A stretch of 34,751 bases of DNA from a virus. The notes under the pieces are model-generated. The model did no database searches. It had not been told where the DNA came from and worked only from the letters and a program-made list of their open reading frames with translations. Below are positions 6,131 through 33,844 of this stretch, piece after piece; positions within the stretch are counted from its first letter, which is position 1, and each line of letters begins with the position of its first letter. The stretch is from positions 1 through 34,751 of IMG/VR virus record IMGVR_UViG_3300032241_001320. One strand, written 5' to 3'. The translations under genes and the position numbers were made by a program.

Positions 6131-8332
6131 ATGACGTTTAAAACACCTGCCAATAATACTATCATTCAGCCAGTTGCACCTGCAATGGGTGCCAAATTTG
6201 GCTCTATGGATAATTTAGGTCGTCTTCGTACATCACGCCATCAAAACATTTATGAAGCTGACTTTGAATACGGCACACAGCCAATGCGTTGGGAAAACTT
6301 TGTTGTAAGTCCTACAAGTAACTCATACATTCAACAATTGCCAGGTTCTGGTGGTGTTCGTATGCGCTTGGGTACTGCTTCAGGTGATGTTACTATTCGT
6401 CAGACACGTCCATATCATCGTTATCAGCCAGGCAAGACAATGGTCATGTCTACTGCGCTTAACTTTGGTACAGCACAAACAAATCAACGCCAGCGTGTTG
6501 GTTTCTTTGATGATGGCAACGGCATGTTCCTTGAACAAGCGGATCCTGTGTACACAGCATCAACAACTGCTTTCACAGGTAATAGCATCGCTGGTCAACC
6601 ATATATTACCGGGTTGTCAAGCACAGCAACCATGTATGTTGGTATGCCTGTTTCAGGTTCAAACATCAATCCTAGTCTTTCAAAGGCAGATCCTAACGGT
6701 GTTATTGCTATTCCTTATACAACAACAGTAACCAATATTATTAATAGCACTGCTGTTGGGGTTAGCGCAGCTCCGCCAACAACGTCAATTGGGTCAACAT
6801 ACAATTTTACAACACAAGCCAATCCTTTTGGCATGTACGCTGTAGTACGTTCTGACGTTAACTCAGCTGGTATTCAGAATCACGGCACTTCTTCAGGTGT
6901 ACCAACAGATACACGTATCCCGTTGCCGGCATGGAATGGTGATGCTGCAACAATTGCTTCACTAGATTGGTCACGTATTCAAATGATCTGGATGGAATAC
7001 ACATGGTACGGCGCCGGTATGGTGCGCTGGGGTTGTGTTATCAACGGCGAATGGGTTGTTTTAAACTACGTAGGTTATGGCAACAAAGGTCCAGTCAATA
7101 CAACAAACCCACAAACAGGTGTATTTGCTTTCCCTGCTCAAGTTGCTCCATGGGCTCGTACAGGTAATCTTCCTGTTCGCTATGAGCAACGTAATGTTGG
7201 CGTAACAGCTTCTCAAAATGATATGTTCCATTGGGGTGTGTCAGTCGTAGTAGAAGGTGGCCAAGACGACCAACGTGGATTTACCTACGCATATGGTATG
7301 GCAAATAGTGTGCCCCGACGAACGGTCACTTCAGGAACTCGTTATCCTGTTCTTTCAATTGCTGCTCGTCCCATGGCAGTTATTGAACTAAGTGGCAATT
7401 CATCATTCAATGCTGCTAATTCAACTAGTAATACAACAGCTATTCAGCTCACAACAGCAAACACATCATATGACGGCGTTCTAGCGTCATCCTTGACAGT
7501 TAGTTATACGTCAGGTAATTCTATTGTCACTGTAACATCAGGAAGTACTGCTAACGTATTTGTGGGTCAAACAGTAACATCTAATCTAACAGGTATTCCT
7601 ACAGGATCAACTGTACAGTTTGTTAATGCAACTGCATATACATTATCATCAACTGCTACTGTTACACAAGCGTCTGCACAAGCAAATACATACACCAACA
7701 ACACACTAGTTGGTCGTCACATTTACTTCCCTGCTCAAGGCACTTCAAATACAGGTCTAACAGGTCGTATTACAGCTAGTAACTCAACTGTAATCACTTT
7801 CGGTAGCATTGTTACAGGCAGTGCAATTGTTAATACAGCTTCAATGACAGGTACCCCCTATCAAATTGGGTTGATCAATCGTGGTCAGTTGCTACCTAAG
7901 AAGATGTATATTTCTACTGATGCTATCTGTATTGTAGAATTGATTACTTCTACTACAGTCAGCCCAATTCTATTGACAGGTGCAGCATTCTATACATTGG
8001 CAAATACCGTAACAGCATCAACAATTGCAGGTACAGTGACAATCGCTAACGGAATGGTATTCGCTAATGGCGCAACTGTTAACTCAGTAGGTCTTGGATC
8101 TAACTACTCATTCGCCATGCGAGATGTTTCAGCGACTGCAGTGTCGGGTGGTGAAGTTGTATTTGCCTTCACAGCACCTGCAGGCGGATCTGGTCTACAA
8201 GAAATTGATCTATCATACTTCTTCCCATTGTATAATACAGTATCAGGAAACATGACAGACGTTCTAACGGTGGCTATAACAGGTACTGCTAACGTAGGTG
8301 TGCATTTGATTGCTCAAGAAGCAATGTCATAA
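6131..8332 (+). CDS. Large virion or tail-fibre-like structural protein
   Basis: A 733-residue protein of unknown exact role. Residues 1-135 and 230-410 form ordered parts rich in Trp, Tyr and Gly, with WNGDAATIASLDWSRIQMIW and YTWYGAGMVRWGCVINGEW; this DW...MEYTWYG...RWG pattern looks like sugar-binding or jelly-roll modules seen in phage fibres. Two Ser/Thr/Asn-rich, beta-repetitive stretches (about 145-230 and 420-570) look like inserted Ig-like or spacer segments. The C-terminal 110 residues are again ordered. A late promoter and GGAG site precede it. A host-recognition or capsid-decorating role is plausible from composition and position only. Its stop overlaps the next start by one base. 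Confidence 0.6.
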   Translation: MTFKTPANNTIIQPVAPAMGAKFGSMDNLGRLRTSRHQNIYEADFEYGTQPMRWENFVVSPTSNSYIQQLPGSGGVRMRLGTASGDVTIRQTRPYHRYQPGKTMVMSTALNFGTAQTNQRQRVGFFDDGNGMFLEQADPVYTASTTAFTGNSIAGQPYITGLSSTATMYVGMPVSGSNINPSLSKADPNGVIAIPYTTTVTNIINSTAVGVSAAPPTTSIGSTYNFTTQANPFGMYAVVRSDVNSAGIQNHGTSSGVPTDTRIPLPAWNGDAATIASLDWSRIQMIWMEYTWYGAGMVRWGCVINGEWVVLNYVGYGNKGPVNTTNPQTGVFAFPAQVAPWARTGNLPVRYEQRNVGVTASQNDMFHWGVSVVVEGGQDDQRGFTYAYGMANSVPRRTVTSGTRYPVLSIAARPMAVIELSGNSSFNAANSTSNTTAIQLTTANTSYDGVLASSLTVSYTSGNSIVTVTSGSTANVFVGQTVTSNLTGIPTGSTVQFVNATAYTLSSTATVTQASAQANTYTNNTLVGRHIYFPAQGTSNTGLTGRITASNSTVITFGSIVTGSAIVNTASMTGTPYQIGLINRGQLLPKKMYISTDAICIVELITSTTVSPILLTGAAFYTLANTVTASTIAGTVTIANGMVFANGATVNSVGLGSNYSFAMRDVSATAVSGGEVVFAFTAPAGGSGLQEIDLSYFFPLYNTVSGNMTDVLTVAITGTANVGVHLIAQEAMS

Positions 8333-9087
8333 TGACAACTAGGATCTACAATCATAAAAACGATGTTGTAGATCATAGAGATTGGTTATTTAAAGATGTA
8401 CATGCGCCAGAGGCACCCATATCATATCCAGACAAAATAAGTCTGCGTGATAAGTTTACCTTTGGCGTATGGGATCAAGGTGCGTTAGGTAGTTGTAGTG
8501 CTCATGCTATTCTTGCATGTTATACATTTGAGCATGGCGGCGGACCATGGTCTCGCTTAGATCTTTATTATCAAGAACGCTTGCTTGAAGATTCTGTAAA
8601 TGAAGATAGCGGCGCCATGATGAGAGATGGCATTAAGGTCTTGGCTGATTCGGGTGTTGGCTTAGAAGAAGACTGGCCATATGTTATCAGCAAGTTTAAA
8701 GAAGCGCCACCTGAAAAAGAAATACAAGAAGCTTCAGACAATAAAATTATTACCTATTCATCACTGCAGTCAGCAGATGATTATAAAACATGCCTAGCTT
8801 CTGGATATCCATTTGCTATAGGAATTCAAATTTTTGCGACCTTTGAATCTGATCACGTAGCGGCGTTTGGCGTAGTACCCATGCCTACATATGGGGATCA
8901 GCGTCTAGGCGGTCATGCGGTGACTGTGATCGGCTACGACAGTAATTTTAGAGGTTCAGGCAATACGTATTATGAATTACGTAACTCATGGGGAACAGAG
9001 TGGGGTGACGAAGGATACTTCTGGCTACCGCAAGCCTATATAGAAGATCCAGAACTTACTGGCGATGCTTGGACGATTCGCAAGTAA
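8332..9087 (+). CDS. Papain-like (C1A) cysteine peptidase
   Basis: A 251-residue protein with a complete papain-family active site: Gln49 of the oxyanion hole in VWDQGALGSCSAH, nucleophile Cys55, His195 in GGHAVTVIGYD, and Asn218 in RNSWGTEWGDEGYF. Spacing between these matches the family. There is no clear signal peptide and little propeptide: only about 45 residues precede the oxyanion Gln. It is coupled to the fibre-like gene by a TAATG overlap, so both are expressed from the late promoter at 6076. It could process a virion protein, act on host surface protein during entry, or act at lysis; the sequence does not decide. Confidence 0.88.
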   Translation: MTTRIYNHKNDVVDHRDWLFKDVHAPEAPISYPDKISLRDKFTFGVWDQGALGSCSAHAILACYTFEHGGGPWSRLDLYYQERLLEDSVNEDSGAMMRDGIKVLADSGVGLEEDWPYVISKFKEAPPEKEIQEASDNKIITYSSLQSADDYKTCLASGYPFAIGIQIFATFESDHVAAFGVVPMPTYGDQRLGGHAVTVIGYDSNFRGSGNTYYELRNSWGTEWGDEGYFWLPQAYIEDPELTGDAWTIRK

Positions 9088-9090
9088 CAC

Positions 9091-9123
9091 AAAAAGATTA
9101 GGGAGCCGAAGCTCCCTAATCTT
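9091..9123 (-). terminator. Terminator for the minus-strand gene, UUCG loop
   Basis: A perfect 13-bp stem (9094-9106 with 9111-9123). Read on the minus strand, the loop is TTCG closed by a C-G pair, the very stable UUCG tetraloop, and it is followed by five T. On the plus strand there is no T-run, so it mainly ends the minus-strand transcript, though it may also slow plus-strand transcription after the peptidase. Confidence 0.85.
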
Positions 9124-9141
9124 CAACATCAACTCTGTCTA

Positions 9142-9426
9142 CTAGACGAGAGGATTGATGCCCTGCTCAGCAAGAGCAGCAAGACCCGCAGCGACAACGC
9201 TACGTGGCGGCGTACCCAGACGATACTTGTTGGTCACCTGACCCTTCGTATTCTGATGTGAGTTACTGTAGATGCAGAACCCTTCGGTACGGAGCCTAGC
9301 GACAACACCGCGAACGGCATTGGTGCTTGAGAAGCCGAAACGGCTGCGAATCTGACTAGCGCTCATCTCTTCGCCTGCACGAAAAGCTGAAAGCACGCGG
9401 TCGGTCTTAGTTGCAATTGAACTCAT
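9142..9426 (-). CDS. Small winged-helix DNA-binding protein
   Basis: A 94-residue basic protein. Residues 5-55 look like a winged helix-turn-helix: a first helix (TDRVLSAFRAG), then MSASQIRSRFGFSSTNAVRGVVARLRTEG as the helix-turn-helix, then a wing strand (FCIYSN). The remainder is a short Ala-rich tail. Such proteins are often phage regulators. It is the last gene of a minus-strand island, with a consensus sigma70 promoter and an array of AACCGTAT-type repeats directly upstream, which suggests self-regulation. A GGAG site lies in the leader. The precise target is not known. Confidence 0.7.
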   Translation of the reverse strand: MSSIATKTDRVLSAFRAGEEMSASQIRSRFGFSSTNAVRGVVARLRTEGFCIYSNSHQNTKGQVTNKYRLGTPPRSVVAAGLAALAEQGINPLV

Positions 9427-9460
9427 ATAACAATCTCCAATAGTAAATGTTAATCAATCA

Positions 9461-9523
9461 AACCGGTTAATCATTTAACCGTATCATCAATATACGGTAA
9501 ACAGGGTATTCTGTCAACCGTAT
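9461..9523. promoter_or_regulatory. Operator-like repeat array
   Basis: Four related 8-mers: AACCGGTT at 9461-9468, AACCGTAT at 9477-9484, its inverted form ATACGGTA at 9492-9499, and AACCGTAT at 9516-9523. One copy overlaps the -35 box and one the -10 box of the minus-strand promoter. The layout fits a repressor binding several half-sites. The adjacent winged-helix protein is the obvious candidate binder; that is inference. Confidence 0.55.
9489..9517 (-). promoter_or_regulatory. Sigma70-type promoter
   Basis: On the minus strand, TTGACA (9517-9512) is followed after 17 bases by TATATT (9494-9489). This is close to the host consensus and would drive the winged-helix gene early in infection. 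Confidence 0.75.
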
Positions 9524-9563
9524 TTTCAAACTATATTTTTGTATAGTTTAAAAATGGCACCTC

Positions 9564-9746
9564 TTACGCTACAGACTTCTTAGCGTCTCCATCAAGAATA
9601 GATTCTGCCCAATCGAGCCAGTCAAGCTCTTCAGAATCTAGACGGCGACCACTACGATACTTCTGCAGAAGTTCTGCACGCTTGTTCTGAATCGCAGTGA
9701 ATCCATGACTAGTCGTTGGAAGCGAGTAATGCTTAACGGTCATCAT
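9564..9746 (-). CDS. Small hypothetical protein (60 aa)
   Basis: A 60-residue, mainly helical, charged protein with no recognised domain. It includes NKRAELLQKYRSGRRLDSEE and an acidic LDWLDWAES segment. The reading frame could start at 9752, but that ATG directly abuts the AGGAG site; the ATG at 9746 has a normal six-base gap and is preferred. It lies between two other minus-strand genes, within what may be one early transcription unit. Confidence 0.55.
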   Translation of the reverse strand: MMTVKHYSLPTTSHGFTAIQNKRAELLQKYRSGRRLDSEELDWLDWAESILDGDAKKSVA

Positions 9747-9770
9747 TGTCATCTCCTAAATCTATAAAAA

Positions 9771-9778
9771 TATTTATC
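9771..9778 (-). promoter_or_regulatory. Possible late promoter variant (GATAAATA)
   Basis: GATAAATA on the minus strand, one base from the late consensus, overlapping the stop codon of the upstream minus-strand gene and about 25 bases before the start at 9746. The same variant appears twice in the repeat at 10202-10328. Confidence 0.3.
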
Positions 9779-10121
9779 CGGCGGCTCGGCAGGTCTTGAG
9801 GTACTGCTTATAGCCTTCCTGTGTGACTGGATAGCCGCCTTCCTTCAACCACTTCTTGATATGAGGAAGAATATATCCCTTGCTTTCGAGTATCGTCAGT
9901 GGACCCTCTCCAGCATTGAGCCGACCAAAATACTCCTCGACCGTGAAGTTCTTGATCAGGAAGGTCTGGAACGTACCAGCAGCGTCGGGCTGATGCTTGA
10001 AGCGAGCCACGAACTCTCCGCGGTACTTGCTGTGCGGGTTGTACATGCCGTGACTCTCGTCCAGCTTATACATGAGGTGCATTCCATCCTTATGGAAGTT
10101 TTCTTTCTTGAAACTACTCAT
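9774..10121 (-). CDS. Hypothetical protein with a duplicated promoter-leader
   Basis: A 115-residue protein of unknown function, rich in Lys, His, Phe and Tyr, without a recognised motif. Frames starting at 10145 or 10142 are possible, but a promoter with its -10 box at 10152-10157 would start transcription close to these codons, and AAGGCG sits at the right distance before the ATG at 10121, so that start is chosen. The 69 bases up to this start are nearly identical to those before the gene at 33841, but the two proteins differ after the first codons. This suggests that both genes are expressed together early, not that they share a function. Confidence 0.55.
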   Translation of the reverse strand: MSSFKKENFHKDGMHLMYKLDESHGMYNPHSKYRGEFVARFKHQPDAAGTFQTFLIKNFTVEEYFGRLNAGEGPLTILESKGYILPHIKKWLKEGGYPVTQEGYKQYLKTCRAAG

Positions 10122-10186
10122 CTGTTTCGCCTTTATGTTCATCATGTAAACATTATGAGGGATAACGAATTTAATTGCAACAACTA
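10118..10186 (-). repeat. 69-bp promoter-leader cassette, copy 1
   Basis: Read on the minus strand, this matches 33776-33844 on the plus strand at 67 of 69 positions. It contains the promoter, the leader, the ribosome site and the start codon. Divergence begins right after the start codon. Confidence 0.85.
10152..10180 (-). promoter_or_regulatory. Sigma70-type promoter
   Basis: TTGCAA (10180-10175) and CATAAT (10157-10152) on the minus strand are spaced by 17 bases. The same promoter occurs at 33782-33810. Confidence 0.6.
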
Positions 10187-10235
10187 AATTTTCTTTAAAA
10201 ACAATAGGTTACAAAAACCTCGCTAAAGTATCGAT

Positions 10236-10264
10236 ATTGTAGTATTTATCCGAATAAAAATCAA
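10236..10264 (-). promoter_or_regulatory. Promoter-like core, minus strand
   Basis: TTGATT (10264-10259) and TACAAT (10241-10236) are 17 bases apart. A late-like GATAAATA lies between them (10250-10243). It points toward the minus-strand gene at 10121. Confidence 0.5.
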
Positions 10265-10271
10265 GTAGTTA
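10256..10271 (-). repeat. 16-bp intergenic motif, copy 1
   Basis: TAACTACTTGATTTTT on the minus strand. Related copies lie at 10284, 26937, 32759 and 33751, each beside a promoter. Confidence 0.55.
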
Positions 10272-10283
10272 GCGAGGTTTTTG

Positions 10284-10299
10284 TAACCTATTGATTTTT
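10284..10299 (+). repeat. 16-bp intergenic motif, copy 2
   Basis: TAACCTATTGATTTTT, 14 of 16 bases identical to the copies at 32759 and 33751. Its TTGATT is the -35 box of the promoter-like core at 10291. Confidence 0.55.
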
Positions 10300-10319
10300 A
10301 TTTGGATAAATACTACAAT
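10291..10319 (+). promoter_or_regulatory. Promoter-like core before the tail tube gene
   Basis: TTGATT (10291-10296) and TACAAT (10314-10319) are 17 bases apart. A late-like GATAAATA at 10305-10312 lies in the spacer and better suits a structural gene. Either could be the working promoter. Confidence 0.5.
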
Positions 10320-10339
10320 ATCGATACTGAGGTACACTC

Positions 10340-10879
10340 ATGGGAACTCCTGTTACTCAACCGACTGATCTTAATTTCTTATCGCCGCTTGGCTTTAAAT
10401 TTACGATTAAAAAGTTGCCAAACTTCGACTACTTTGTACAAAGTTTCGACTTTCCCAGTTTGAGTCTCAACAGAACGAAAGACATGCAAACACCATTTAA
10501 CAAGGTGATCATTACTGGTGATCACTTGACATTTGGCGATTTTAGTGTCACGTTCAAGATTGATGAAAATATGGCAGGGTACTTTGAGTTGTATAATTGG
10601 ATTGTAGGCATCGGTAAGCCAGACAATTTTAATCAATACGCAGCTCTCGCTAACAATGCACCTACATCAGGTAAAGGTGTGATTGTAGATGCTGACTTGA
10701 TTATTCTTGATAGCGTGATGCGTCCAAATATCAAAGTAACATTCTCAGATGTGATTCCTACATCGCTATCTGGATTTACGTTTGATACAAAGAATGAAGA
10801 TGTCCGTTATGTGACAGCAACTGCAGGATTCAAGTATCGTGAGTATACGTACATACAGTTGCCTGCAGGATCGACTTAA
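10340..10879 (+). CDS. 19: Tail tube protein, gp19-like
   Basis: A 179-residue protein resembling phage tail tube subunits, which stack as hexameric rings to form the inner tube of the contractile tail. The pattern includes FKFTIKKLPNFDYFVQSFDFPSLS near the start, the ITGDHLTFGDFSVTFKIDE block (about 53-75) that matches the conserved GDRTFDDWTVTV-type strand of gp19, and a C-terminal VTATAGFKYREYTYIQL strand. In T4, gene 19 lies before the portal gene; here this gene lies before uvsY, so it may be a relocated gp19 or a second paralogue. The related tube initiator gp54 is an alternative. A GAGG site is seven bases before the ATG. Confidence 0.7.
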   Translation: MGTPVTQPTDLNFLSPLGFKFTIKKLPNFDYFVQSFDFPSLSLNRTKDMQTPFNKVIITGDHLTFGDFSVTFKIDENMAGYFELYNWIVGIGKPDNFNQYAALANNAPTSGKGVIVDADLIILDSVMRPNIKVTFSDVIPTSLSGFTFDTKNEDVRYVTATAGFKYREYTYIQLPAGST

Positions 10880-10897
10880 CAATGAAGGTATTATATT

Positions 10898-11335
10898 ATG
10901 AAGTTGGATGAGATTTTTGATTTGTGGAATGAAGATTCAGAAATTAACACAAACGCCATCGATAAAGAAGCAGTGAAGATACCCAAACTTCACAACAAAT
11001 ATTTTAAAATCTTTTCGCAAGAACGTTTGCTATTACGTAAACTTGAAACAGAATACAAGCAACTGTTGCAATTAAAGTATGATTACTTCATGGGTGTTCT
11101 TGATGAGGAAACTCTAAAAGAGAAAAATTGGTCTCAAAACCAACGAACGATTCTTAAGTCAGATATTCCTATGCATATTGATGCCGACCAAGACATTATC
11201 AATCTAACACTCAAGATTGGATTGCAAAAAGAGAAGTGTTCTGTTCTTGAATCTATCATTAAGAATATTAGTGAGCGTGGGTACATCATCAAGAATTTCA
11301 TTGACTGGCAACGATTCACAAGTGGCGGCACATGA
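10898..11335 (+). CDS. uvsY: Recombination mediator UvsY
   Basis: A 145-residue homologue of T4 UvsY (137 residues), which loads UvsX recombinase on single-stranded DNA coated with gp32. It is helical and charged. The C-terminal half has IDADQDIINLTLKIGLQKEK and SERGYIIKNFIDWQRF, matching the SADKDV...SRGFAIKHIQDMRAF pattern of T4 UvsY. The stop overlaps the uvsW start by four bases (ATGA), so the two are translationally coupled. The ATG sits in a TATATTATG context shared with gp45 and gp44. Confidence 0.92.
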   Translation: MKLDEIFDLWNEDSEINTNAIDKEAVKIPKLHNKYFKIFSQERLLLRKLETEYKQLLQLKYDYFMGVLDEETLKEKNWSQNQRTILKSDIPMHIDADQDIINLTLKIGLQKEKCSVLESIIKNISERGYIIKNFIDWQRFTSGGT

Positions 11336-13206: not shown

Positions 13207-13755
13207 ATGTCGCAAGAAAAGCCAAAAAATCATTATGTAGATAACAAAAGTTTTTACGCTGCACTCATTCGTTATAAAAATAAAAAGAAAGAAGCCGAAG
13301 CTCTCGGATTACCTACACCCAAGATTCCAGAGGACATTGGCCTGTGTATTTTTCAAATTGCCACTCGTCTAGCATCTAAAGGCAATTTTGTGAATTATTC
13401 CTATAAAGATGAAATGATTTCTGATGGAATAGAAAATTGTATTAACTATATGCATAATTTTGATCCTGAAAAATCGAATAATCCATTTGCATATTTTACT
13501 CGAATAATCTATAATGCATTCATTCTGCGGATTCAAAAAGAGAAAAAGCAGACGTACATCAAGTATAAGACAATGGAGAATACAATTTTATCTGGCGACT
13601 CATATGAGTATCAAGACACCGACAATCCTATCATGCAAGATGTGAATGTCAATGACAACATGAACGTTTTTGTAAAAGATTACGAAAAGAAATTAAGTGA
13701 GAAAAAGGTGCCAAAGAAAGTTGGTATAGAATTATTTGTAGTGGGTGATGAATGA
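13207..13755 (+). CDS. 55: Late-transcription sigma factor gp55
   Basis: A 182-residue homologue of T4 gp55 (185 residues), the sigma-like factor that replaces host sigma70 and recognises TATAAATA. The region DEMISDGIENCINYMHNFDPEKSNNPFAYFTRIIYNAFILRIQKEKKQ (start near residue 70) matches the sigma region 2-like core of gp55, and T4 gp55 ends in a short gp45-binding tail; here the final residues include the hydrophobic GIELFVVGDE. The many TATAAATA sites in this window are its expected targets. The stop overlaps the gp47 start by four bases. Confidence 0.93.
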   Translation: MSQEKPKNHYVDNKSFYAALIRYKNKKKEAEALGLPTPKIPEDIGLCIFQIATRLASKGNFVNYSYKDEMISDGIENCINYMHNFDPEKSNNPFAYFTRIIYNAFILRIQKEKKQTYIKYKTMENTILSGDSYEYQDTDNPIMQDVNVNDNMNVFVKDYEKKLSEKKVPKKVGIELFVVGDE

Positions 13756-16618: not shown

Positions 16619-17200
16619 ATGACAATTTTAAATCTTGTACATTGCGACGATCCCATTCTTAGAGAAGAGATGCCTGAGTTTGACTTTGCAAATCCGCCAA
16701 CTGATCCTATACAGTTGTCAAAAGATTTGACAGAGACTATGATTCAGAATAAGGGTTTGGGTCTTGCTGCAAATCAATGTGGATTGCGATACCGAGTATT
16801 CGTATTGACAGGTGAACAAGTCCTTGCCTGCTTCAATCCTAGAGTCGTATCAGCGTCTGCAGAGACTACCTATCTTGATGAGGGATGTCTAAGCTATCCA
16901 GGCCTTATGGTCAAGATCAAGCGTCCTCAAACAATACGTGTTCGCTTCACTATGCCTAATGGGGATACAACAACCAGAATGTTTGATGGTATCACTGCCC
17001 GATGCTTTTTACATGAACTTGATCATTTGAATGGAAAACTGCATATTTCAAGGGCGAATCCATACCATCTTGAAAAGGCTCTTAAGATGCAAAAGGCGTA
17101 TAACCGCATCATGAAGAAAGATATTAATGGGAAGATCGCAAAAATTGCAGCAGCCTATGAAAAGGCTTTACAGGAAGAAGATAAAAAGAAATCTGCATGA
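16619..17200 (+). CDS. def: Peptide deformylase
   Basis: A 193-residue metalloenzyme that removes the formyl group from new protein N-termini. All three family motifs are intact: GLGLAANQ (46-53), EGCLS (88-92, with metal ligand Cys90) and HELDH (132-136, with ligands His132 and His136 and catalytic Glu133). The C-terminus runs some 55 residues beyond the last motif as a Lys-rich helix, longer than in compact cyanophage deformylases. Phage deformylases are known in marine viruses. The tail after HELDH closely resembles the end of the next gene. An AGGA site precedes the ATG. Confidence 0.95.
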   Translation: MTILNLVHCDDPILREEMPEFDFANPPTDPIQLSKDLTETMIQNKGLGLAANQCGLRYRVFVLTGEQVLACFNPRVVSASAETTYLDEGCLSYPGLMVKIKRPQTIRVRFTMPNGDTTTRMFDGITARCFLHELDHLNGKLHISRANPYHLEKALKMQKAYNRIMKKDINGKIAKIAAAYEKALQEEDKKKSA

Positions 17201-17741: not shown

Positions 17742-18092
17742 ATGGAAGACAATAAGCCTGTAGTTGATGAATCTACAGAATACGAAAGTCTGATTGACTC
17801 AAAGAACATCTCTTATGGTGTATCTACTCTTGATGCATTCTTGCCTGAAGACGAAACTTTGGAGCAAGATGATGTAAAGTGGAAGAAACATTGGGTAGGA
17901 ATGCCCGAGTTCAAGCAAGATACTAATCCACCATATAAACAGATTTACGTAAGCTTCCGTAACAAAGAAGACTATGAAGAGTTTGCCAAGTTGATCGATC
18001 AGCATCTTACTATCAAAACAAAAAGCATCTGGCATCCAAAGCTAGATCGTGATGCAAATGCACTTCGTAGGTGGATTGAAACTGATGACTAA
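17742..18092 (+). CDS. Conserved protein paired with the glycosyltransferase
   Basis: A 116-residue acidic protein. The C-terminal half has the pattern WVGMPEF....PYKQIYVSF, then EDYEEFAKLIDQ and TIKTKSIWHP, which I recognise as a recurring small domain in phage and bacterial proteins, often near base-modification or ParB-like genes. Its function is unknown. It overlaps the glycosyltransferase start by eight bases, so the two are coupled. The ATG lies in GGAGTATATTATGG, the shared start context. Confidence 0.6.
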   Translation: MEDNKPVVDESTEYESLIDSKNISYGVSTLDAFLPEDETLEQDDVKWKKHWVGMPEFKQDTNPPYKQIYVSFRNKEDYEEFAKLIDQHLTIKTKSIWHPKLDRDANALRRWIETDD

Positions 18093-18999
18093 TCCAAAAT
18101 ATCCTGTCTATATCATTAGTAAAGGTCGGCATGAATCAATGCTGACCTCTCGTTCATTGGCACGAATGAAAGTGCCACATTACATTGCGATTGAACCACA
18201 GGATGAAGCTTTGTATGAACAAGCACTAGACAACTTTGGCATCCGTGAGTATGTCACTCTTCTAGTTGCACCTTTCAGTAATCACGGCGACGGACCAGGT
18301 CGCGCTAGAAACTGGTGCTGGGATCATTCTATCTCTATTGGTGCAACTAGTCACTGGGTAATGGATGACAACATCACAGACTTTTATCGTCTCCATGAAA
18401 ACAGTCGTATTCGCGTTGAATCTGGTGTGATCTTCAAAGTTGCTGAAGACTTTGTTGATCGATATGAGAATGTTCCTATCTCTGGGTTTCAATATCGTTT
18501 CTTTATTGCACCAAATCAGAAGTATCCTGCTTTTGTAACAAACACTCGTATCTATTCCACATTGCTTATCAGAAACGATTGCAAGCATCGCTGGCGTGGT
18601 CGTTATAATGAAGATACTGATATCTGTCTTCGTGTATTGAAAGATGGTGATTGCACTATTCAGTTTAATGCTTTTCTTCAAGGCAAAGCTGCAACACAGA
18701 CTGTCAAAGGTGGTAACACTGCTGAGTTTTATCATGCTGAAGGCACACAAGACAAGGCTCAATGGAGAGATGGCCAGCTTAATCCAGAGGGAACAATCAA
18801 CAAGTCACAAATGCTCGTAGACATGCATCCAGACGTGGCCCGCATGGTATTTCGCTACGGTAGATGGCATCATTACGTTGACTATGGTCCATTCAAGAAG
18901 AACCAGTTGATTATGAAGAAAGACATTGATCTCAAGTCACTACCTAAAGTAGATAACTACGGAATGAAACTAGTCAAACTTGCTAAGGATGCTATATAA
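18085..18999 (+). CDS. TET-associated-type glycosyltransferase
   Basis: A 304-residue GT-A-like glycosyltransferase. YPVYIISKGR at the start, HYIAIEPQDEALYEQAL (from 32), WVMDDNITDFYR (91-102, with the DDN metal site) and GRYNEDTDICLRVLKDG (172-188) match my memory of the family found beside TET/JBP dioxygenases and other genes for hypermodified DNA bases in phages. The likely substrate is a modified pyrimidine in phage DNA, but no dioxygenase or hydroxymethylase is visible in this window, so the acceptor is open. A start at 18049 is possible in frame, but the ATG at 18085 gives the conserved N-terminus. Confidence 0.78.
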   Translation: MTNPKYPVYIISKGRHESMLTSRSLARMKVPHYIAIEPQDEALYEQALDNFGIREYVTLLVAPFSNHGDGPGRARNWCWDHSISIGATSHWVMDDNITDFYRLHENSRIRVESGVIFKVAEDFVDRYENVPISGFQYRFFIAPNQKYPAFVTNTRIYSTLLIRNDCKHRWRGRYNEDTDICLRVLKDGDCTIQFNAFLQGKAATQTVKGGNTAEFYHAEGTQDKAQWRDGQLNPEGTINKSQMLVDMHPDVARMVFRYGRWHHYVDYGPFKKNQLIMKKDIDLKSLPKVDNYGMKLVKLAKDAI

Positions 19000-26209: not shown

Positions 26210-26947
26210 ATGCAGGCATTCACAGGATACATTCACGAAGGTATTAATCTTACCCTTGAATATCACGATGAACTCAATCCTCTTATTTGGGAAGATGAGG
26301 ATATGAAGTCGAAGGTCCGCGAGCGCCTTTTACAGATTGGTAGAATGTGGGCAGATTTTGCTAAGATTCCGCAAGATGCCATTCGTGATATTGTTTTAAC
26401 TGGCGGCAACGCTAACTACAATTATACTCCGTATTCTGATCTTGATGTACATTTGCTTGTCAATCTTTCAAAGATTCCGGGTGATAAAGAAACATTGACT
26501 GATCGTCTTTATGATAAGAAAGTTCTTTGGACATACAAGCATCCGCATCTAACAGTCATGGGATATCCTGTCGAACTATATGCTCAGGATTATCGCCAAG
26601 CAGTCGCCACAGAACAGGGTGAATATTCTCTAATGAAAGGTAGATGGCTTACTAAGCCTAATATTCTAAGTCATCCTGACTTTGACAACGACAAGGCCTT
26701 GCTTGATAAAATTGAAGAATACAAAGAAATGATTGAGCGTATTCTATCTGAGCCTGGCGATCATACAGGTGAAATTAAAAAGTTAAAAGAAAAGTTTCAC
26801 AATATGCGTTCTGCAGGCATTCAGCGTGCAGGCGAGTTCTCCATGGAAAACTTAATGTATAAAGAATTAAGAAATCGTGGATACATTGATCGACTAAATG
26901 ATTATCTTCAGAAAAAGCACGACGAGTTGCTATCACTAACTGCTTGA
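26210..26947 (+). CDS. Nucleotidyltransferase-fold protein
   Basis: A 245-residue protein. GGNANYNYTPYSDLDVHLLV (65-84) holds the GG and SDLD signature of the polymerase-beta-like nucleotidyltransferase fold, with metal ligands Asp77 and Asp79. A helical C-terminal half includes ERILSEPGDHTGEIKKLKEK and a final KELRNRGYIDRLNDYL. Similar proteins appear in T4-like cyanophages; their substrate is unknown. The start lies two bases after the endolysin stop, with GGAG upstream. Confidence 0.72.
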   Translation: MQAFTGYIHEGINLTLEYHDELNPLIWEDEDMKSKVRERLLQIGRMWADFAKIPQDAIRDIVLTGGNANYNYTPYSDLDVHLLVNLSKIPGDKETLTDRLYDKKVLWTYKHPHLTVMGYPVELYAQDYRQAVATEQGEYSLMKGRWLTKPNILSHPDFDNDKALLDKIEEYKEMIERILSEPGDHTGEIKKLKEKFHNMRSAGIQRAGEFSMENLMYKELRNRGYIDRLNDYLQKKHDELLSLTA

Positions 26948-26952
26948 TTTTT
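26937..26952 (+). repeat. 16-bp intergenic motif, copy 3
   Basis: TAACTGCTTGATTTTT, overlapping the end of the nucleotidyltransferase gene. It differs from the minus-strand copy at 10256-10271 at one base. Its TTGATT is the -35 box of the promoter at 26944. Confidence 0.55.
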
Positions 26953-31365: not shown

Positions 31366-32761
31366 AGATATCATCTTTTCGCATCTTCTAGAAAACGAAA
31401 CATATGGACGAAAGGTTATACCATTTCTCAAGAACGAATACTTCCAAACAAGAACGAACAAAATTCTATTTGAGTTGATCGACAACTATATAAAGACCTA
31501 TCACAAGATTCCTACGAAGGAAGCTCTCACAGCAAAACTACAAGGACTTGATAATCTCACCGAGGACGAGTTTAAAAGTTGTACAGAATATCTGCAGACA
31601 CTTAAGGCGGATTTGACGACCAGCATTGACTGGCTTGCTGATGAGACAGAAAAGTTTTGTCAGGAACGCGCTGTATACAATGCGATCATGGATTCTATCA
31701 AGATCATTGACAACAAGGATCCTAGGCGCGGTAAGGGATCGATTCCCGATATTCTGTCAGAAGCTCTTAGCGTATCCTTTGATACTAACATTGGGCATGA
31801 CTTTATTGAGGATTCCAACTCTCGTTATGACTTCTATCATACTCGAGAAGAGAAGATTCAATTTGATCTTGAATACTTCAACAAGATCACAAAGGGCGGA
31901 TTAAGTAAGAAGACATTGAATATTATTCTGGCATCTACAGGTGTCGGTAAGACAATGTTCATGACTCACTGCGCTGCTCATCATTTGACCTTGGGCAAGA
32001 ATGTTCTCTATATCACAATGGAAATGTCTGAAGAACGTATCGCAGAACGTATCGACGCAAATCTAATGGATGTGACTATTGATGAGTTGAAAGAACTACC
32101 AAGAGATTCTTTCGATAAGAAAATTAATCGTATCAAAGGCAAGACACAAGGTAAACTGATTGTCAAGGAATATCCGACAGCTGCTGCAGGATCATCACAC
32201 TTTCGGCATCTTCTGCAGGAACTGCGTATCAAGAAGGCATTCAAGCCAGATATCATCTATGTTGATTATTTGAACATTTGCTCGTCTGCACGAATGAAAA
32301 TGGGGGGCTCTGTTAATAGCTATATGTACGTAAAGGCAATAGCAGAAGAGCTAAGAGGATTAGCAGTCGAGTTCGATGTACCCATCATCTCTGCAACACA
32401 AAGCAACAGAGACGCTTATAACTCGTCAGATGTGGGGTTGGATAATACATCAGAATCCTTTGCTTTGCCGGCAACTGCTGACTTTATGTTTGCTTTGATT
32501 TCTACAGAAGAACTGCAAGATCTCAATCAAATTATGGTAAAACAATTGAAGAATCGGTATGATGATCCTTCAAGCAATCGTCGGTTTGTTATTGGAGTCA
32601 ATCGATCTAAGATGAGATTCTATGATGTAGAGCAATCTGCTCAGAACGATATTCTAGACGGACCAGGGCAACATAAATACTCGGGCAGCACCTTCTCAGA
32701 AGGGGGCTTTACCACAAAGAAAGCCAGAAAAGGGGATTTCTCTGAGTTAAGGCTCGACTAA
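31355..32761 (+). CDS. 41: Replicative DNA helicase gp41
   Basis: A 468-residue DnaB-like hexameric helicase that opens the replication fork and partners the primase. An N-terminal helical domain (1-150) is followed by the RecA-like core with a Walker A ASTGVGKT (193-200), the TMEMSEERIAERIDANLMDV motif typical of DnaB-like enzymes, DIIYVDYLNIC as Walker B, and SATQSNRDAYNSSD. Length fits T4 gp41 (475). An AAGGA site lies five bases before the ATG. The stop codon is the first part of the 16-bp motif at 32759. Confidence 0.95.
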   Translation: MAIEDIIFSHLLENETYGRKVIPFLKNEYFQTRTNKILFELIDNYIKTYHKIPTKEALTAKLQGLDNLTEDEFKSCTEYLQTLKADLTTSIDWLADETEKFCQERAVYNAIMDSIKIIDNKDPRRGKGSIPDILSEALSVSFDTNIGHDFIEDSNSRYDFYHTREEKIQFDLEYFNKITKGGLSKKTLNIILASTGVGKTMFMTHCAAHHLTLGKNVLYITMEMSEERIAERIDANLMDVTIDELKELPRDSFDKKINRIKGKTQGKLIVKEYPTAAAGSSHFRHLLQELRIKKAFKPDIIYVDYLNICSSARMKMGGSVNSYMYVKAIAEELRGLAVEFDVPIISATQSNRDAYNSSDVGLDNTSESFALPATADFMFALISTEELQDLNQIMVKQLKNRYDDPSSNRRFVIGVNRSKMRFYDVEQSAQNDILDGPGQHKYSGSTFSEGGFTTKKARKGDFSELRLD

Positions 32762-32774
32762 CTCATTGATTTTT
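32759..32774 (+). repeat. 16-bp intergenic motif, copy 4
   Basis: TAACTCATTGATTTTT, identical to 33751-33766 (17 bases if the C before each is counted). It begins with the stop codon of gp41 and lies 18 bases before the next -35 box. Confidence 0.6.
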
Positions 32775-33750: not shown

Positions 33751-33766
33751 TAACTCATTGATTTTT
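33751..33766 (+). repeat. 16-bp intergenic motif, copy 5
   Basis: TAACTCATTGATTTTT directly after the stop of the preceding gene, 15 bases before the -35 box at 33782. Identical to the copy at 32759. Confidence 0.6.
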
Positions 33767-33775
33767 AAATGATTA

Positions 33776-33844
33776 TAGTTCTTGCAATTAAATTCGTTAT
33801 CCCTCATAATGTTTACATGATGAACAAAAAGGCGAAACAGATGA
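33776..33844 (+). repeat. 69-bp promoter-leader cassette, copy 2
   Basis: Matches 10186-10118 (minus strand) at 67 of 69 positions. The copy holds promoter, leader, AAGGCG ribosome site and start codon. Confidence 0.85.
33782..33810 (+). promoter_or_regulatory. Sigma70-type promoter
   Basis: TTGCAA (33782-33787) and CATAAT (33805-33810) are 17 bases apart, with the gene start 30 bases downstream. Identical to the minus-strand promoter at 10152-10180. Confidence 0.65.

Follow-up and report, generated by a model that had tools for sequence, protein, structure and literature searches.

An inverted and rotated promoter repeat in a T4-like phage, probably the product of one template switch

Inverted repeats separate a leftward small-gene cluster (first start codon at 10145) from a rightward tail-tube gene (start codon at 10340) in IMG/VR virus record IMGVR_UViG_3300032241_001320, of which positions 1 to 34,751, referred to here as the window, were analysed. 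One copy of the repeated unit is inverted and, in addition, rotated relative to the other, raising the questions of how this order arose and what it means for the promoters it contains. Judged by its predicted genes, the window comes from a T4-like phage that encodes a gp55-type late sigma factor of its own. The T4-like set comprises a head protease, the major head protein, the tail tube, UvsY and helicases; SbcC/SbcD (gp46/gp47-like) subunits, a sliding clamp (phrog_223, E 7.9e-69) and clamp loaders are likewise encoded. Other predicted genes include one for a papain-family cysteine protease (8332–9087; PF00112, E 2.1e-14), which lies among the structural genes and is followed by a terminator-like hairpin (9093–9124), a peptide deformylase-like gene (16619–17200; phrog_2890), and a glucosyl-HMC glucosyltransferase-like gene (18049–18999; phrog_842) that hints at modified phage DNA.

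Table 1. Features of the repeat region and neighbouring genes, in coordinates of the window
Feature	Position	Strand	Remarks
A	10202–10226	+	left inverted copy of 10269–10293; 25/25 to the reverse complement
B	10227–10264	+	left inverted copy of 10291–10328; 37/38 to the reverse complement
GTAG	10265–10268	.	reverse complement of the CTAC joining A to B' in the inferred ancestor; four-point reconstruction
A', right copy	10269–10293	+	
B', right copy	10291–10328	+	holds the predicted tail-tube gene promoter
IHF-like box AAACAATAGGTTA	10199–10211	+	one mismatch to AATCAANNNGTTA
IHF-like box AATCAAGTAGTTA	10259–10271	+	
IHF-like box AATCAATAGGTTA	10284–10296	-	
T4-type late promoter box ATAAATA (GGATAAATACT)	10306–10312	+	34 nt before the tail-tube start codon
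Duplicated T4-type late promoter box	10243–10249	-	leftward
Sigma-70-like core TTGATT-17-TACAAT	10291–10319	+	overlaps the late promoter
Sigma-70-like core TTGATT-17-TACAAT	10236–10264	-	identical core in the inverted copy
Early promoter TTGCAA-17-CATAAT	10152–10180	-	predicted for the leftward gene
Leftward small gene	9774–10145	-	phrog_22119, E 3e-12; function unassigned, probably early; early-type promoter upstream
Tail tube gene	10340–10879	+	phrog_45, E 4.8e-26
gp55-type late sigma factor gene	13207–13755	+	phrog_234, E 3.8e-59

The repeat itself consists of four segments in the order A B A' B', in which each pair is inverted and the two pairs interleave (Table 1). The longest exact inverted arm within 10100–10420 measured 25 nt, compared to a mean of 9.6 and a maximum of 16 in 100 dinucleotide-preserving shuffles, and a repeat search recovered both inverted pairs (45 nt at 91% and 30 nt at 97%). 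Read on the minus strand, the left copy runs B'A' and the right copy A'B', so that the inverted pairing and the rotated order described in an earlier sequence-only reading of this DNA are both borne out. The right unit is 60 bp long because A' and B' share a three-base overlap (TTG, 10291–10293), and the left copy spans 63 bp because CAA is present at both of its ends. The TTG overlap, located in the inverted IHF-like boxes, would be the site of the return join in the mechanism discussed below, and the other join (10226/10227) shows zero overlap and no microhomology. As the two copies are identical at 62 of 63 positions, the duplication event was apparently recent. We regard the locus as carrying a genuine mutation of a phage promoter region, which is apparently recent and for the most part explained.

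Each copy presents an outward-facing promoter-like core, as had also been read from the sequence, and this core can now be specified as a T4-type late box overlapping a sigma-70-like element. ATAAATA occurs 16 times in the window (7.3 expected) and the longer ATAAATACT four times (0.39 expected), with ATAAATA boxes situated 32–54 nt ahead of several structural genes. Together with the encoded gp55-type sigma factor and sliding clamp, this enrichment before structural genes supports the assignment of the 60-bp unit as a putative T4-type late promoter with a sigma-70-like core, and the right copy is the predicted promoter of the tail-tube gene. Late promoters read TATAAATA in T4 and KVP40, and NATAAATA has been reported for the T4-like cyanophage S-PM2 (PMC2984593). 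The window resembles these systems in its ATAAATA box before structural genes and its gp55-type sigma gene, but differs in the G preceding the box (GGATAAATACT), in the overlap with a sigma-70-like core and in the presence of two back-to-back copies. For middle-type genes of RB49 and S-PM2, it has been proposed that early and late promoters overlap (PMC2984593); here, too, the sigma-70-like and late boxes share bases, whereas the overlap concerns the tail-tube gene and, by duplication, the leftward early cluster.

The leftward gene faced by the left copy already possesses its own predicted early promoter and IHF-like box. That early promoter belongs to a 94-bp module, repeated at 33751–33844 with 88% identity; the two copies (10118–10211 and 33751–33844) are mutually inverted, and each extends into the opening codons of a different gene. 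Another leftward late-type box (GGATAAATA) was noticed at 9771–9777 on the minus strand, before the second leftward gene (9564–9752). A terminator scan called none at A or A'.

The early module opens with TAACNNNTTGATT, the reverse complement of AATCAANNNGTTA, and this sequence meets the consensus of integration host factor-type (IHF) binding sites, WATCAANNNNTTR (PMC8942017). In the window, WATCAANNNNTTR is matched at 10 candidate sites, as opposed to 3.1 expected; these include 10259–10271, 10284–10296, 26937, 32759 and 33751. The boxes differ from the general IHF site in following a tighter motif (AATCAANNNGTTA) in a fixed orientation, and are thus termed IHF-like. Indeed, the AATCAANNNGTTA motif recurs at 26937, 32759 and 33751, always oriented alike relative to the gene downstream. 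These three boxes (26937–26949, 32759–32771 and 33751–33763) all lie upstream of rightward genes. The first of them contains TTGATT, followed after 17 bases by TATGAT, and may double as a –35 element.

A single relative that has this junction turned up, the contig L004, whose tail-tube protein shares 82% amino acid identity with that of the window. Its junction consists of a leftward early promoter, two inverted boxes separated by a 12-base spacer, then AATAAATACT and the tail-tube gene; there is no duplication, and the repeat search reported no long inverted pair. L004 further carries five IHF-like boxes with this orientation relative to the gene downstream and several additional copies of the 94-bp early-promoter module. 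In the more distant relatives L005–L012, a short gap with an ATAAATA-type promoter was seen by eye, with no such duplication. As L004 has the same divergent promoters in unduplicated form, the window is longer here by about 60 bases. The comparison thus supports an insertion, not a prior direction of the spacer. The sequence-only reading had called for the 60-bp unit to be traced in related phages: its exact 25-base A segment had no other match in viral contigs, leaving the structure in a single record, yet L004 supplied the unduplicated layout. The same contig also stands in place of the relative with two plainly unrelated halves that had been sought as evidence against a duplication. A megablast of 9200–11300 against phages returned no match, and a search for tail-tube relatives in genome contigs yielded none that was confirmed.

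In our preferred reading, which we consider probable, a short template switch during DNA copying created the duplication. In the ancestor, a leftward early promoter would have stood back to back with a rightward late promoter, joined by two inverted IHF-like boxes. On reaching the end of A, the polymerase would have jumped to the end of B' on the opposite strand and copied back through B' and A; its return to the first strand would have taken place within the boxes, at the shared TTG. The product would be A, followed by the reverse complement of A-CTACTTG-B', followed by B', a net gain of 60 bases, with the switch points ordered 3-1-4-2 on the ancestor. The rotated order then follows because the copied segment of the switch overlaps both flanks.

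This reading was evaluated by composing the descendant from one ancestor as L to point 1, the reverse complement of points 3 to 2, and point 4 to R. Two ancestors were considered, which differ in the orientation of the 12-base spacer between the boxes. Ancestor (i), A-CTACTTG-B', is partly inferred from the window itself and has a spacer reading CAAAAACCTCGC; ancestor (ii), whose spacer reads GCGAGGTTTTTG, is the best-scoring simple deletion (10197–10254), its coordinates being chosen as the best of many. In an exhaustive four-point search, ancestor (i) reproduced the window with one mismatch once one T had been restored to the left box; without the restored T, the same four-point solution gave 60 matched bases and one mismatch. 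When aligned to L004, the reconstructed ancestor needed no gaps across the early promoter, the two boxes and the late promoter box, whereas the observed window required about 60 bases of gaps (scores of 169.5–184 for the ancestors vs. 147 for the window). It is from these comparisons that we infer the event and its direction.

Template switching between inverted repeats, including inversion of the spacer, is established (PMC8604942, PMC7954356). As point 2 lies ahead of point 1, the event would be an inter-strand switch under the rule set out in PMC7954356. It is akin to short-range template-switch or quasipalindrome mutation in that an inverted copy of nearby sequence was produced, inverted-repeat arms lie at the return join and one event accounts for a complex change, with arm-to-arm spacer inversion a known outcome (PMC8604942, PMC7954356). 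The majority of described switches, however, follow the patterns 1-4-3-2 and 3-2-1-4 and leave single inverted repeats (PMC7954356), whereas the window shows the order 3-1-4-2, two interleaved inverted pairs and the copying of a whole promoter. As an individual case the locus is new, but the mutation belongs to a known kind and no new kind of element is involved. An inverted repeat that looks complex and rotated can be traced to a single mutational step of a known type, and a relative shows the insert-free layout.

Ancestor (ii) aligns slightly better to L004 than ancestor (i) (184 vs. 175), which speaks for a different route: a multi-jump switch through the AAAAATCAA arms of the boxes with one jump on the opposite strand, in which two of three jumps would have nine bases of homology, or inversion of the spacer, which template switching is known to cause (PMC8604942), followed by a single switch. 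Against this stand the cost of one more jump and the failure of single four-point events from (ii), the best of which still left 14 mismatches, and we judge the route unlikely. Either way, the routes from (i) and (ii) both amount to template switching, and the box arms involved are the same.

Inverted chimeras of this type are also made by whole-genome amplification. Since the structure was found in a single record by the exact A-unit search, a chimera that the polymerase introduced during amplification, or that arose when an inverted repeat was assembled across, has to be weighed. The mismatch between the copies, the clean joins at both ends and the intact flanks point away from an artefact, none of them conclusively, and overall we hold one to be quite improbable.

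The sequence-only reading had itself offered two origins, a tandem duplication followed by inversion and copying from a small circle. An A'B'A'B' array would supply the exact B'/A' join, and inversions between the boxes are plausible in that these share AAAAATCAA as inverted arms. Nevertheless, this route takes three steps when traced by hand (a duplication and two inversions), and the tandem form was not found in the exact A-unit search of viral contigs, rendering it very unlikely. A small circle is not needed either, because it requires re-insertion, as compared to one four-point switch that gives the exact order.

What might the template switch have changed? The inserted piece lacks a start codon but contains an entire promoter in which sigma-70-like and T4-type late elements overlap; it has therefore probably provided the leftward cluster with one more promoter, located about 100 bases ahead of that cluster's first start codon. 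Transcripts should start near 10320 rightward and near 10230 leftward, as predicted from the promoter cores. The former would begin downstream of all of A, B and A', the latter inside B. Neither predicted transcript would thus include the two arms of a pair, which makes an RNA hairpin switch unlikely, and such a switch was set aside on this ground. The predicted leftward leader fold is unremarkable (z –1.4), and an Rfam search returned no match. Of the earlier idea that the interleaved pairings could alternate between two hairpins, the DNA part stands as base-pairing potential, with the B/B' hairpin in single-stranded DNA reaching –39.8 kcal/mol (z –11.4), and the RNA part is not supported. 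A working device kept by selection, be it an invertible promoter or a hairpin (cruciform) switch, is highly improbable: inverted repeats flank the segment and B can pair with B' in single-stranded DNA, but no recombinase adjoins among the genes scanned, L004 is without the duplicate, and the transcript predictions and the empty Rfam search likewise count against it.

Returning to the template switch, we suggest only tentatively that this one event gave the divergent cluster a complete early/late promoter and thereby changed its expression timing, and that inverted IHF-like boxes lying between phage promoters are hot spots at which switches of this kind occur. Provided that the left copy is active, the locus would illustrate how a single step can equip a neighbouring phage gene cluster with a full promoter.

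Inverted box pairs of this type are found elsewhere. The same pair with a 12-base spacer precedes sigma-70-like sequences in the phage contigs L030 (557–596), L031 (3208–3247), L032 (3875–3914), L034 (4952–4991) and L035 (12038–12077), and the L034 spacer (GCGTAGTTCTTG) resembles GCGAGGTTTTTG of the window. Spacings between inverted IHF-like boxes cluster at 0, 12–13, 21–22 and 25–26, but many of these loci may be related, so that a preferred spacing is not proposed. Nor is a general rule placing an IHF-like box before late promoters, with only 10 loci in IMG/VR, several of which look by eye like coding or tRNA neighbourhoods. In other contigs, the IHF-like motif also occurs near apparent tRNA genes.
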